Positions 9,761-48,877 of a stretch of 64,000 nucleotides of DNA are shown piece by piece. Positions within the stretch are counted from its first letter, which is position 1; each line of letters starts with the position of its first letter. Under the pieces are notes generated by a model that was given only the letters and a program-made list of their open reading frames with translations, ran no database searches and had not been told where the DNA came from. Origin of the DNA: Methanococcoides burtonii DSM 6242 (GTDB lineage Archaea > Halobacteriota > Methanosarcinia > Methanosarcinales > Methanosarcinaceae); assembly GCF_000013725.1 (NCBI RefSeq), contig NC_007955.1, forward strand, positions 775,579 through 839,578. The letters run 5' to 3'. Both the position numbers and the translations under genes were made by a program.

Positions 9761-9868
9761 TAATTAAATGACATTGTGAAATAAATAAATGAGAAGAGTT
9801 AAGTATAGAAAGTCATACCAATGTCTGAAGAACAAAAGATGTTCTTTATTTTAGAGGAAGTGAAAATT

Positions 9869-10066
9869 ATGTGCAATGAAAACTGTCCATGTTGGGGGAA
9901 AAACATTACTCATCCGAGAATATGCCCGATCTGCGATTATATTTTTAAGGGAAATGGTTGGGATGGAATCGATGCTCACTATAAAGCGAGACATGAAAAA
10001 GAGACTGGTGAATTATATAAGGATTGGTGGGCACGAATTTGTAGTGACCATAAAGCGAAAAGGTGA
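9869..10066 (+). CDS. Small zinc-finger protein
   Basis: I prefer the ATG at 9869 (65 residues), preceded by a GAGGAAGTG purine stretch; a longer frame from 9821 lacks a ribosome site. The peptide has CNENCPCWG, then CPICDYIFKGNG and HYKARHE, giving a C2H2-like finger (C-x2-C ... H-x4-H). Such single-finger proteins are common in methanogens and may bind DNA, RNA or protein. It is a lone gene between the divergent pst operon and the Gabija locus. Function unknown. Confidence 0.65.
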   Translation: MCNENCPCWGKNITHPRICPICDYIFKGNGWDGIDAHYKARHEKETGELYKDWWARICSDHKAKR

Positions 10067-10272: not shown

Positions 10273-12057
10273 ATGAGTATTTTAATAAAAACCGTTCGTA
10301 TTGCAGGCTTCAGAGGATTGGAAAATATTGAAGTCGAACTTGAGCAAACCACGATTTTGACAGGCATGAACAATACGGGAAAAACTTCCTTTCTCAAGGC
10401 TTTGCAATTGGCATTGGGCAATCGTCAATTTGTCTCACAGGATGATTTTTTTATTAAGGGTGATTTTGTATCTAAAGAAATAATTGTAGACCTATTGATT
10501 GTTCCAATTAATGGTGATGGTGACGAGCGTGATGACTTTTCCCCAGATTGGGAAACTTTGTTCACGATTGAAAGAGTACGCAATGATGATGCTGGCAGGT
10601 CTTTCGTTCCACTTAGAACAGTCATTACTTTTGATGAGGTAAATAACAATTATAAGACTCAGCAATTTATTCTAAAATTCTGGCCTGAACTGATAAAGAA
10701 ATTTGATGTTCCCGGCAGTGAACAAAAAGATATTAATTGGTATGAGGTTAAAGATATTGGTGATAGCAGTAAGTCTAATTTTCACTTTGATGAAATTCCG
10801 TTTTTTTATATGGATGCACAGAGAGATATTTTAGAGGATATTAAATTAAGATTTTCTAATCTTGGCAAGATGTTATCAAAAATTAAATATTCCGATGATG
10901 ACATTAATGAAATTGAATCCCAAATTAAAACACTGAATGAAAAAGCTGTAAGCAGCAGTCCAATTTTATCCATTCTTAAAACAAATCTAAAAGAACTGGA
11001 TACTGCAATGGATTCTCATGGTGAAGGGATTGAAATTACACCTTTTACTAAAAAGATTAGAGATTTAAATAAAGGTTTAACGATTTATTATAACGATCAA
11101 AACGAATCATTTCCTATGGAAAATCATGGCATGGGAACAAGAAGTTGGTCATCTTTGTTGGCATTGAAGGCATTTGTTTTTCTACTTTCTAACAATGCAA
11201 TGGAAAAGGGAACTAAATTTTTTCCTATTCTTACGATTGAGGAACCTGAAGCACATTTACACCCAAATGCACAAAAAAAACTTTATGAGCAGATTGATTC
11301 CATAGTAGGCCAAAAAATCATTTCAACACATTCGCCTTCTATTACCTCAGCAGCTAGGTTAAGCCAAATCCGTAACTTTTATAAAAATGAAAAAGTGACG
11401 TGTGGCAAGATTGAAACTGATAAACTAGAACCTGAAGATATTAGACAAATAAATCGTCAAGTTACCAATACAAGAGGAGAAATATTTTTCTCAAAGGTAC
11501 TTGTCTTTGTTGAAGGTGAAACTGAAGAACAGGCACTCCCAATTTTTGCAGAAAAATATTTTAAAAAATCCCCTGTTGAAATAGGACTAGATTTTATTGG
11601 TGTAGGTGGCCATCCAAAATATCTACCATTTTTACGTTTTGCAGAGGCATTAAATATTCCTTGGCTTATTTTAAGTGATGCAGAACTTTCTACAAAAGAA
11701 AGTGTTCTTTCACAATTTTCGAAGTGTAGTTCTAAAAAGAGTGATATCAATTGTGTCGTTTTCCTTGATGATGGAAATGATTTTGAAAAACAGCTTATCG
11801 CTGATAATTTTAGTGTTGAGATTAAAAGTGCCATTTCTTCTTCATGTAATTATATGAATGGACAACATAAAAAAGCAAAAGAAAAAGAAATCGAAAAGTA
11901 TGATGACAAAAAGTTGTATACGATCATAATGGGTAGTAAAACACAATATGGTCCTGTTATTGCTGAAAAGATAATACAAACCGATAAAGATTTACCTCCT
12001 AAAGTAATTAATCTATTTAGGAAGATAGATGCTATTTTAAAAAGGAAGGAGATATAA
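10273..12057 (+). CDS. gajA: Gabija protein GajA (OLD-family ATPase with Toprim nuclease domain)
   Basis: 594 residues. The N-terminal ABC-type ATPase has Walker A GMNNTGKTS (residues 31-39) and, near residue 320, LTIEEPEAHLHPNAQ with the Walker B glutamates, then ISTHSP (the H-loop). The C-terminal Toprim domain begins around residue 408 with VLVFVEGETEEQ and continues with LDFIGVGG and LILSDAE, the acidic residues expected for metal-dependent nicking. Together with the next gene this is the arrangement of Gabija, in which GajA cuts DNA when nucleotide levels fall. GGGAG at 10261-10265 is a good ribosome site. The base composition is more AT-rich than the neighbouring pst operon, as expected for acquired defence genes. 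Confidence 0.88.
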   Translation: MSILIKTVRIAGFRGLENIEVELEQTTILTGMNNTGKTSFLKALQLALGNRQFVSQDDFFIKGDFVSKEIIVDLLIVPINGDGDERDDFSPDWETLFTIERVRNDDAGRSFVPLRTVITFDEVNNNYKTQQFILKFWPELIKKFDVPGSEQKDINWYEVKDIGDSSKSNFHFDEIPFFYMDAQRDILEDIKLRFSNLGKMLSKIKYSDDDINEIESQIKTLNEKAVSSSPILSILKTNLKELDTAMDSHGEGIEITPFTKKIRDLNKGLTIYYNDQNESFPMENHGMGTRSWSSLLALKAFVFLLSNNAMEKGTKFFPILTIEEPEAHLHPNAQKKLYEQIDSIVGQKIISTHSPSITSAARLSQIRNFYKNEKVTCGKIETDKLEPEDIRQINRQVTNTRGEIFFSKVLVFVEGETEEQALPIFAEKYFKKSPVEIGLDFIGVGGHPKYLPFLRFAEALNIPWLILSDAELSTKESVLSQFSKCSSKKSDINCVVFLDDGNDFEKQLIADNFSVEIKSAISSSCNYMNGQHKKAKEKEIEKYDDKKLYTIIMGSKTQYGPVIAEKIIQTDKDLPPKVINLFRKIDAILKRKEI

Positions 12058-12059
12058 GC

Positions 12060-13904
12060 ATGACACCCCGAGTTGAATTGTCAAAAAAGCAGGAAGAAAT
12101 TGTCTTTGCTGAAAATGGTGCCATCTACGTTAAAGCTAGTGCTGGGAGTGGAAAAACACGTGTTTTAACTGAAAGGGTACGATATCTATTAGATAAAACC
12201 AATAAAAAAGTACTTGCTCTGACATTTACTAACAAGGCGGGGGAAGAGATTAAGGAACGATTAAGCGACATATCAGAAATAGACAATCGTGTTTTTGTGG
12301 GGACTTTTCATAGTTTTTGTCAATCTATACTGGAAAACCATGGTAATTTGATTGGTCGGGCGCAAATGCCGCATATTTTTGAAGATGAATCAGACAGGTT
12401 AGAATTGGTTGAACAGGCGATTATGCAAACCCCTTCATATGCAGAAATATACAAAAATAAATCTAAACAAAATCAGATTGATTATCGATATAGTGTATTA
12501 AGTTTTATCTCAAAAGTTAAACGAGAATTAATCTCTGACAGTGAACTTGGACAACATACAACTGATGATAATCTAGTTTTGATTTATCATAACTATCGGG
12601 AGATTTTGGATAATCAAAATGCCATCGATTTCGATGATCTTTTGTTTCTTGCGCATAACTTGCTGGTTAATTATCCCAAAACAGCTGCTTTGTACCGCAG
12701 GAGTTTTTTTGCGATTTGCATAGATGAAGCACAGGACTTGAATAATGCCCAATATCAACTTTTACTTGCTTTGGTTAATGGTGAATTTAATAATATCATA
12801 ATGGTAGGCGATTCGAATCAATCAATTTACAACTTTAATGGTTCATCTCCGAAATATATGGATGAACAGTTTGTACATGATTTTGACCCCGTTGCTGTTA
12901 TAAAATTGAATGAAAATTATCGTTCATCAAAAGAAGTATTATTAGCTGCAAAAAAAATAATTCCGGATGAATCTGATATTTCAGAAACAGTTAAGGAAGG
13001 CATTTTTAAAATACATTGTCTGAAAAATGAACACGATGAAGCCCAGTGGGTTGTTGATAAGATAAATGAACTACTTACTGCAAAAACACATGATGATATT
13101 GAAGGTGAAATTACCCTTGAAAAAATAGCAGTTCTTGCAAGAAATAAATATATCTTTAATCAATTAGAAAATCTCTTAACAGAGAACAATCTTCCTTTTT
13201 ACTACAAAATGACTCCAGGAATGATTCGTTTTGAGTCTGATTTAATGAAAATATTTGATCTTTCATTAAGAGTAAGGTTAAACCCATTGGACGATTTACA
13301 TAAGCAAAGGTTGCTAAATTATCTAAATATAAAAAATTCCGAAAATATGAACTTGGAAAGTATGATTCCATTAGTGCCAGATGAGTTGGTTCAAAATCTT
13401 ATCTTACTAGTTACGGAATTACATGATGATGGAAGTAACATAAAGCAGAAATTGGAAAGTTTCAGAGATACGCTGACTGTCAATGATGAAAACGAAAAGA
13501 ATATGATTTTCAATGACATTACAGAAATATTAAACCATTGGCATAATTATGCTAAGAAAACAGATAACAAATCATTGCATCAATTTAAAAATGCTATGGC
13601 TTTAGGAAAAACTCATCCACTAACACAACATAGCGGTATCACACTAAGTACCGTGCATACAATGAAAGGACAGGAGTTTGATATTGTCTTTATTATCGGC
13701 ATGGATGATGAGACATTTCCTGATTATCGTGCTGTTCGAAGCGGGGGTATCGAGCTGATACAAGAAAAAAATAATTTATATGTTGCTTTTACCCGAGCAA
13801 AGCGCTTTTTATATGTAACCTAGCCACAAGAGAGGATGATGCCTTGGGGTAGCTCTAAAACTAGAGTAATCTCTCGTTTTTTAAGTAATTTCTCATTCAG
13901 TTAA
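12060..13904 (+). CDS. gajB: Gabija protein GajB (UvrD-like helicase) with an in-frame UAG
   Basis: GGAAGGAGATAT overlaps the end of gajA and the ATG follows its stop by two bases. Helicase motifs are in order: ASAGSGKTR (Walker A, about residues 26-34), LTFTNKAGEEI, GTFHSF, CIDEAQDLN (Walker B, near residue 222), VGDSNQSIYNFNG, LNENYRSS, STVHTMKGQEFDIVF and YVAFTRAKRFLYVT. The frame then meets TAG at 13821-13823, but stays open for 26 more codons to TAA at 13902-13904. The extension, with RMMPWG and ISRFLSNF, resembles the conserved end of UvrD/PcrA-type helicases (an ...SRFL... stretch). Either UAG is read through, for example as pyrrolysine, or the protein ends 26 residues early at 587 residues. 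Confidence 0.85.
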
Positions 13905-46780: not shown

Positions 46781-47895
46781 CAGGATACTTCCACTTTTTT
46801 CAAGTCAATGATATCTACCAATGCTTCAACTAATTTGCAATTTTCGGTTTCAGTACGGCTGGCGATACGGACATAACGGCTAGAGTCAGGTAGAGTCTTG
46901 TCCTGGCAGTGTTTTATGTACATGTTATGCTCAATGAACAATCTACGTGTGAGCTCAGGACCACTCTGTGCGTGATCTGGCAAGCGGCAGAAAATAAAGT
47001 TTGCATCGGGTTTGTAAACCGTCATTCCCGGGATAGCGCACAGTTTTTTATACAGATTGTCTCTGTCGATACGTACCTGCTTGCAGCTTTCGACAAATTC
47101 CTGTCTGTAATCAGGCAATATCCGCAAAAACTCTTCGGCAAATCCGTTGATATTCCATATGTGTACACCTTCCCTTACAGATTCAGCAAATGCTAAATTT
47201 GCAGTCAACATATAACCTATCCTGATACCGCAGATACCATAGGCTTTGCTCATGCTTTTGAGGATCGCTATATTTGGATAACGTTCGAGCTCATTTTCCA
47301 GAGTTGTCTGATCCGGGTCATGTACAAAATCCAGGAAGGATTCATCGATGATCAGCATACAGTCATGTTTTGCAAGTTTTTGTGCAAGAGATATCAGATC
47401 GGACTTGGGAACCAGCATAGATGTTGGATTATTGGGTGTTACCACGACAGCAACATCTGCTTTGATCCTGATCGCTTCAGCAGCAAACTTATCCACATCC
47501 AATTGAAAGGATGGAAACTCAAGAGGAAATTCAAATACTCGGTCTGCAGGTGCTGCATTCGCATATTCATTGAACGAGGGCACTGGAACGATTAGCTTGT
47601 TGGATATGTGGCCGGAGATGATCTTGATAAGTTCGGCAGCACCATTTCCCACAACAATCCTTTCAGCAGGTTGGTGGATCACATCCCCTATAAGACCGGC
47701 AAGTGCATCCTGTGCGATCGGATAGTTAAGGACAATGTCGTGGATTTGATCTTTAAGGGTTGTAAAAACGGCCTCTGGCGGGAAATACAGATTGTAAAGA
47801 TAAGCATGATCAATAAAGTCATGGCGATAGTAACCACCATGCTGTCCAGAAACGAATTCGTATTTTTCAGTTTGAGTTTTGTAATAATTTTGCAT
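46780..47895 (-). CDS. PLP-dependent class I/II aminotransferase or decarboxylase (HisC/CobD-like)
   Basis: 371 residues. Fold-type I motifs include VGNGAAELIKIISG, VVTPNNPTSMLVP, IIDESFLDF and the PLP lysine in LKSMSKAYGICGIRIGYM, with R at YVRIASR for the carboxylate. CobD-type relatives decarboxylate threonine phosphate; HisC types transaminate. Next to a cytidylyltransferase-like gene and a CDP-alcohol transferase, a role in making an amino-alcohol phosphate (for example phosphoethanolamine-like) or aminoethylphosphonate is plausible. The substrate is inference. Confidence 0.82.
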   Translation of the reverse strand: MQNYYKTQTEKYEFVSGQHGGYYRHDFIDHAYLYNLYFPPEAVFTTLKDQIHDIVLNYPIAQDALAGLIGDVIHQPAERIVVGNGAAELIKIISGHISNKLIVPVPSFNEYANAAPADRVFEFPLEFPSFQLDVDKFAAEAIRIKADVAVVVTPNNPTSMLVPKSDLISLAQKLAKHDCMLIIDESFLDFVHDPDQTTLENELERYPNIAILKSMSKAYGICGIRIGYMLTANLAFAESVREGVHIWNINGFAEEFLRILPDYRQEFVESCKQVRIDRDNLYKKLCAIPGMTVYKPDANFIFCRLPDHAQSGPELTRRLFIEHNMYIKHCQDKTLPDSSRYVRIASRTETENCKLVEALVDIIDLKKVEVS

Positions 47896-48127
47896 CAGGA
47901 ATTATTTCCCTTAAATGATTTTGATGTGGCACTTCATTTTTTAAAGCCCTGACATCATGAATTGGCTTTAAATTTAAAGAGTTGGACTGAGGTAATGGCT
48001 TTAAACCGGAAAGTGACCGAACGATCCTCCCTTTCAACCCGCACTTTGATTGTTGGAAAAACTGCCTTGATCTTCCAGAGATATGCGGTTTGGTTTCGTA
48101 AGGAATTATTGTTTCGTATTTGTCCGC
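47896..48127. other. 232-bp interval inside the head-group cluster, unresolved
   Basis: On the minus strand the nucleotidyltransferase frame stays open past its UAG for about 85 codons (ADKYETIIPYETKPHISG...), while another frame reads AYLWKIKAVFPTIKVRVERE before TGA. Neither is convincing enough to call. The PLP-enzyme promoter or a lost domain may lie here. Confidence 0.3.
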
Positions 48128-48877
48128 CTAAAATAGTGTCTCAGCCTTTGCCAGATCTGCAACTGTATCGATCTCATACCATCTTTTGCTGTCAAATGAG
48201 ACTGTTTTAAGATCGAGACTATCATCAGCCACCATTTCTGCAAATACGGTTTCATAATAGTCGTTTACTCTGCCAGCAGAAATGTACTTATCTAGTCTTT
48301 CTGTAATACGATGCCATGAAGAGAGTGAAAAACTGTAAATGTTAACAGTCTTGTATCTGATCTCATCAAGAGCTTCTGCAATCCCGGTATGGAATTTCTT
48401 AACATTTTGGGAGCTATTGACCGTGACAGTGGAACCATTCAGCCACGGTTCCATGCGTGCAACGGCAATTTTATCAGGAGAACGCATTTCATCCAGAAGG
48501 GATTCATCAAAAACAAGATCACTTTCAATAAGTAAGAACGGCTCATTAATAATATCACGTGCCATCCAGAGTGAATAGATGTTATTGGTGGTAGCATAAA
48601 GGGGGCTTATAATAAATTCAATTTCCATGCCGCAAGCCCGCGTTTCTAAAAAGTCACGAATGCATTTTTCCTGGAATCCAGTGACAACAACAAGACGTTT
48701 GAACCCTTGCTTTTTCAAATTGATGACAAGTCGTTCAAGAATAGACGCCTCATGAACCATTGTGAGGCATTTCGGTGAGTTTTGTGTCAGAGGATAAAGA
48801 CGGCTGCCCTTTCCGGCTGCCAATAGTAATGCTGTAGTTATGGCCCCATTACCACTATTACTGTGGTCTGAGTTCAT
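48128..48877 (-). CDS. Sugar/choline-phosphate-type nucleotidyltransferase
   Basis: 249 residues. The nucleotide-binding LLLAAGKGSRLYPLTQNSPKCL lies at about residues 17-38, with VVTGFQEKCIRDFL, SPLYATTNNIYSLWMA and LIESDLVFDESL (metal Asp) following, as in LicC-like cytidylyltransferases that act on phosphocholine or similar amino-alcohol phosphates. It is the first gene of the head-group cluster. It ends in TAG, with the frame open beyond for about 85 codons, so the true C-terminus is uncertain in a possible pyrrolysine user. Confidence 0.82.
   Translation of the reverse strand: MNSDHSNSGNGAITTALLLAAGKGSRLYPLTQNSPKCLTMVHEASILERLVINLKKQGFKRLVVVTGFQEKCIRDFLETRACGMEIEFIISPLYATTNNIYSLWMARDIINEPFLLIESDLVFDESLLDEMRSPDKIAVARMEPWLNGSTVTVNSSQNVKKFHTGIAEALDEIRYKTVNIYSFSLSSWHRITERLDKYISAGRVNDYYETVFAEMVADDSLDLKTVSFDSKRWYEIDTVADLAKAETLF

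Follow-up and report, generated by a model that had tools for sequence, protein, structure and literature searches.

An in-frame amber codon before the conserved C-terminus of GajB in the Gabija system of Methanococcoides burtonii is a likely site of pyrrolysine insertion

The window analysed here is a stretch of 64,000 nucleotides from the genome of Methanococcoides burtonii DSM 6242, and its forward strand carries two adjoining genes of a Gabija system. The first of these, gajA (10273..12057, +), encodes an uninterrupted protein of 594 amino acids, an OLD-family ATPase with a TOPRIM domain, which scored 716.4 bits over residues 1-590 against the PADLOC model PDLC00067 and matched the Pfam family OLD-like_TOPRIM. 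Immediately behind the gajA stop codon (12055-12057), gajB starts with ATG (12060). Up to an amber codon gajB (12060..13820, +) specifies 587 amino acids of a UvrD-like SF1A helicase, including motif VI (VAFTRAK), with 749.1 bits against PDLC00132 and Pfam matches to UvrD-helicase and UvrD_C. By the PADLOC and Pfam assignments the locus contains both a GajA (OLD-family ATPase plus TOPRIM) and an adjacent GajB (UvrD-like SF1A), and in most homologous loci a gajA homologue likewise adjoins gajB. Judged by these matches, the gene starting at 12060 encodes the GajB helicase, and together with gajA it makes up a two-gene Gabija system whose defence activity is predicted. Gene order, the OLD/TOPRIM character of GajA and the UvrD-like SF1A character of GajB are the same as in Gabija as represented by PDLC00067/PDLC00132 and by the system of Bacillus cereus VD045, whereas GajB has 614 amino acids in M. 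burtonii and 494 in Bacillus, and the M. burtonii tail is set off by the amber codon. Just upstream of gajA there is an ORF of 81 amino acids (9821-10066) with several Cys and His residues (possible zinc finger); a PADLOC search with this ORF gave no match.

The amber codon (TAG, 13821..13823, +) is codon 588 of gajB and is in the same frame as the ATG at 12060, so that under translation table 11 the gene (12060-13823) comprises 587 codons and ends there. Past the TAG the frame remains open for 26 codons (PQERMMPWGSSKTRVISRFLSNFSFS, 13824..13901, +) and, by reading of the frame, is closed by TAA (13902..13904, +). A previous sequence-only reading of the window had described this extension together with the motifs RMMPWG and SRFL; both are present, as residues 592-597 and 605-608, respectively, of a predicted read-through product of 614 residues that would have pyrrolysine at position 588. 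It had also likened the residues after the UAG to the normal end of UvrD-type helicases, and in this respect profile search, homologues and the UvrD/PcrA alignment agree with it. With TAG taken as a stop, the alignment to PDLC00132 reached model position 599 of 625; when TAG was read, the score rose by 41 bits to 789.8 bits and the alignment extended to position 623.

Alignment of GajB homologues, which had been proposed as a check, was done with 34 related loci, mostly bacterial, of which 32 cover the TAG region. All 32 run past the site and none stops there; a GajB family ending at the UAG position was therefore rejected. The position of the TAG is a conserved aromatic one (Trp in 20 homologues, Tyr in 11 and Phe in one), and the 32 sequences share, with minor variation, the tail [W/Y/F]PxxRxMPWGxxxxRxxSRFLxxF. 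TGG is found at the site in every one of the nearest homologues (75-76% identity), TAC or TAT in others. Nine tail positions are invariant in 25 aligned homologues, and M. burtonii GajB has kept every one of them. UvrD and PcrA, both as sequences and as structures, align through the region of GajB that follows the TAG. The gain in profile score and the continuation of all 32 homologues show, at the level of sequence comparison, that the 26 codons after the TAG are the real C-terminus of GajB and not a chance extension. Thus, what comes after the UAG is homologous to the remainder of GajB, as expected of a pyrrolysine-containing protein, and the standard code probably shortens GajB of M. burtonii by 27 residues.

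In an AlphaFold model of GajB (mean pLDDT 84; 67-77 for the tail blocks) residue 588 is located within a strand formed by residues 580-593, so in the model termination at the UAG would cut this strand. The model could be aligned to UvrD, PcrA and Bacillus GajB (8sm3_B) through its last residue, and in the case of 8sm3_B the alignment includes both C-termini.

Some archaea are said, in a report of 2025, to read all TAG codons as pyrrolysine. For M. burtonii the capacity to decode UAG can be seen in the genome: PylB (591 bits), the N-terminal domain of PylS (137 bits), tRNA-Pyl(CUA) and PylC- and PylD-like genes were found in one cluster, PylC and PylD being assigned by cluster position and translation, without a family search. 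The genome thus has a complete pylTSBCD set, and the absence of these genes, which would have spoken against decoding, is refuted. Since no homologue ends at the site and the pyl genes are clustered in the same genome, decoding of the gajB UAG as pyrrolysine appears likely. In archaea possessing pyl genes UAG serves both as a sense and as a stop codon; when an arbitrary UAG was placed in a reporter, M. acetivorans read it with a frequency of about 20-30% without special context, and a downstream element of the PYLIS type was not required for read-through (PMC2933860). Folding of 106 nt of RNA around the gajB UAG was not clearly better than that of shuffled sequences (z = -1.14), and a PYLIS-like element at this codon was rejected, there being no downstream structure above background. 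The pylB gene itself (L070) ends in TAG, which is already in the literature (PMC2933860); 42 further open codons overlap pylC.

The use of TAG was surveyed in a sample of 464 kb (18% of the M. burtonii genome) consisting of the window and 20 further stretches. TAG ends only 15 of the 321 long ORFs in this sample, and the median in-frame extension is 26 codons after TAG vs 10 and 12 after TAA and TGA. An expected case among the sampled TAG ORFs is MttB, which has an internal TAG (L109:13078-14598). In a histidine kinase of M. burtonii the HATPase_c domain (116 bits) scored only when TAG was read. The TAG in this gene (G000:C1:2425302-2426927, corresponding to L109:302-1927) and in L111-L126 lies inside HATPase_c, in the context SNSLKFTPENGCI[TAG]INA. 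The 20 closest matches among histidine-kinase domains, spread over all 11 Methanococcoides genomes, contain one internal TAG each, and in 14 of the 16 TAG-bearing HATPase_c domains that were read it falls on exactly the same residue; other relatives have ordinary residues there (e.g. Ser, Lys or Trp). By this comparison a signalling protein appears to have a conserved pyrrolysine codon, which is more striking than the one in gajB.

Among the HATPase_c matches listed for the 11 Methanococcoides genomes, 24 of approximately 150, counted by eye, had a TAG inside. Five matches were flagged with TAA or TGA; four of these were read, and in all four the codon was the final codon of the gene. In ten genomes of the order that lacked a match to the PylS N-terminal domain, about 105 HATPase_c matches contained 3 TAG, 3 TGA and 1 TAA, these stops being mostly in weak or fragmentary matches and their positions unchecked. 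As far as can be seen from these sequences, TAG interrupts coding genes in Methanococcoides, TAA and TGA rarely if at all.

Within the family gajB carries TAG in M. burtonii alone among 186 genomes of the order. No close relative of GajB was found in these genomes; the only relative, in another genus (G145, 900 bits, 38% identical), has Tyr at this position and is uninterrupted. M. burtonii GajB falls in a clade of 15 rows made up mostly of bacterial sequences (support 100/99). A search of viral contigs revealed no relative, and plasmid records yielded relatives at about 40% identity only. The GC content of gajAB is 0.33 vs 0.42 ± 0.05. The bacterial-dominated clade, the lack of a close relative in the order and the low GC content are best explained by horizontal acquisition of a bacterial-type gajAB.

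The sequence of the tail speaks to its history after the appearance of the TAG. Identity to close homologues is 0.68 in the tail vs 0.75 gene-wide, and among windows of the same size the tail is at the 15th percentile. Its pN is about 0.2 and its pS 0.5-0.8 in comparison with close homologues, only a little more than in the remainder of the gene. Three of 23 tail residues are unique to M. burtonii, a number reached by about 10% of windows; this slight excess over the average leaves room for some relaxation. Nevertheless the tail is undecayed as a sequence. In a simulation of neutral decay all nine invariant residues were kept in fewer than 5% of runs once 0.15 substitutions per site had been exceeded, and pS of approximately 0.55 to the nearest relatives implies that these are separated by about one synonymous substitution per site. 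The preservation of the tail against this expectation suggests that it is still translated or, alternatively, that the mutation is young. Elsewhere in GajB there is no deviation at 113 invariant columns, except for one column with an alignment gap.

The explanation that we consider probable is that gajB was transferred, that its Trp or Tyr codon became amber by near-neutral drift, and that the UAG is at least partly read as pyrrolysine. The Gabija genes would have entered a Methanococcoides-type methanogen, where one substitution at codon 588 would be sufficient to create TAG because the homologues carry Trp or Tyr at the site: G to A in TGG, or a change of the third base in TAC or TAT. With the expanded code (tRNA-Pyl(CUA), PylS and PylBCD) the amber codon could be tolerated as a neutral or mildly deleterious change. 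Ribosomes arriving at codon 588 would either terminate or insert pyrrolysine, giving rise to two products: a protein of 587 residues, from which the end of the strand and the domain 2A tail would be missing, and the full-length GajB of 614 residues with pyrrolysine at 588. Full-length GajB could probably be produced only with pyrrolysine. We infer that the UAG is translated as pyrrolysine, and likewise the ratio of the two products and the retention of function. In Bacillus, the contact with GajA is made by residues 1-223 in the N-terminal part of GajB (PMC10822852); by analogy GajB truncated at the UAG could be incorporated into the complex as well. What counts against tolerated drift with read-through is that UAG also terminates in M. 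burtonii (e.g. in pylB, see above).

The preserved tail is also compatible with a recent true nonsense mutation, in which case UAG would mainly terminate, GajB would lack 27 residues, Gabija would be impaired or decaying and the tail would be intact through recency. We consider this unlikely, even if in the one case that has been measured UAG terminates mostly (PMC2933860), the tail has acquired a few unique residues and within the order the system stands alone in a single species. GajA is intact and so is the rest of GajB at its invariant columns, TAG is the only type of stop that the host is equipped to read, and internal TAGs recur in the genus, where, of the five TAA/TGA flags of the histidine-kinase survey, the four that were read are terminal stops.

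A stronger role of pyrrolysine was suggested by the sequence-only reading, according to which GajB would contain or depend on pyrrolysine and Gabija would be sensitive to its supply. Its first part is borne out as likely by the homology of the tail and the presence of the pyl genes; dependence is not, relatives having an aromatic residue at the site. For a functional pyrrolysine an amber codon conserved across species would be expected, but every one of the 32 homologues has Trp, Tyr or Phe. Sensitivity to supply is not upheld either: the codon is present in one genome and at an aromatic site, the downstream RNA shows no particular structure and drift suffices. Since an arbitrary UAG is read at only 20-30% in M. 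acetivorans (PMC2933860), such sensitivity is possible only as a side effect. That complete GajB is made only with pyrrolysine and that Gabija tracks pyrrolysine supply (e.g. on methylamine vs methanol), truncated GajB being a poisoning or tuning subunit, is a quite improbable combination. Selection of the UAG in order that defence follow pyrrolysine supply, or that mixed octamers of truncated and full-length GajB tune activity, seems very unlikely. Truncated GajB could join the complex, given the GajA-binding region in Bacillus (PMC10822852), and the conserved amber of the Methanococcoides histidine-kinase clade demonstrates that such codons can be kept, but the gajB codon occupies an ordinary aromatic site in a single genome and the structure of the downstream RNA does not exceed background. 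It is conceivable that one base of a TGG or Tyr codon was misread in sequencing or assembly, as a change of one base brings back the residue typical of the family and the gene with TAG is present in one genome only, but such an error is extremely improbable in a single closed contig of 2,575,032 bases that is 99.9% complete, and the recurrence of other TAGs of the genus at one site across independent genomes indicates that amber codons within genes are a biological trait.

Tolerated read-through has a parallel in Thg1 of Methanosarcina acetivorans, likewise a non-methyltransferase gene of a methanogen possessing pyl genes, with an in-frame UAG and, as summarised in PMC2933860, with pyrrolysine non-essential for activity. 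In Thg1, according to the same summary, pyrrolysine was physically observed, whereas in GajB, the product of a transferred defence gene, it is deduced from sequence. MtmB, MtbB and MttB also have an in-frame UAG read as pyrrolysine; in these methyltransferases, however, pyrrolysine has a presumed catalytic role and different species share the codon, in contrast to the plain aromatic site in the relatives of GajB. An antiviral gene would join the few genes outside the methyltransferases for which a pyrrolysine codon is probable. The case would illustrate how, under an expanded code, genes acquired by transfer can come by drift to depend on a rare amino acid, and such drift would restrict the return of these genes to hosts without pyl genes.

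Further TAG codons were noticed in other ORFs. In the window a nucleotidyltransferase ORF (47867-48877, -) ends in TAG and is followed by 86 more open codons; the extension had no Pfam match, and this TAG is probably a true stop. The frame runs through TAG in a VWA/CBM96 surface-type protein of about 2164 amino acids (L102:12373-18867, -) and in an ORF of about 408 amino acids without a Pfam match (L104:1668-2894, -). A RecB-like helicase of a congener (L089 / L045, G006:C14:2166-4181) has a TAG in the middle of the gene where all close congeners have CAG or CAA (Gln), the gene being about 95% identical around the site.
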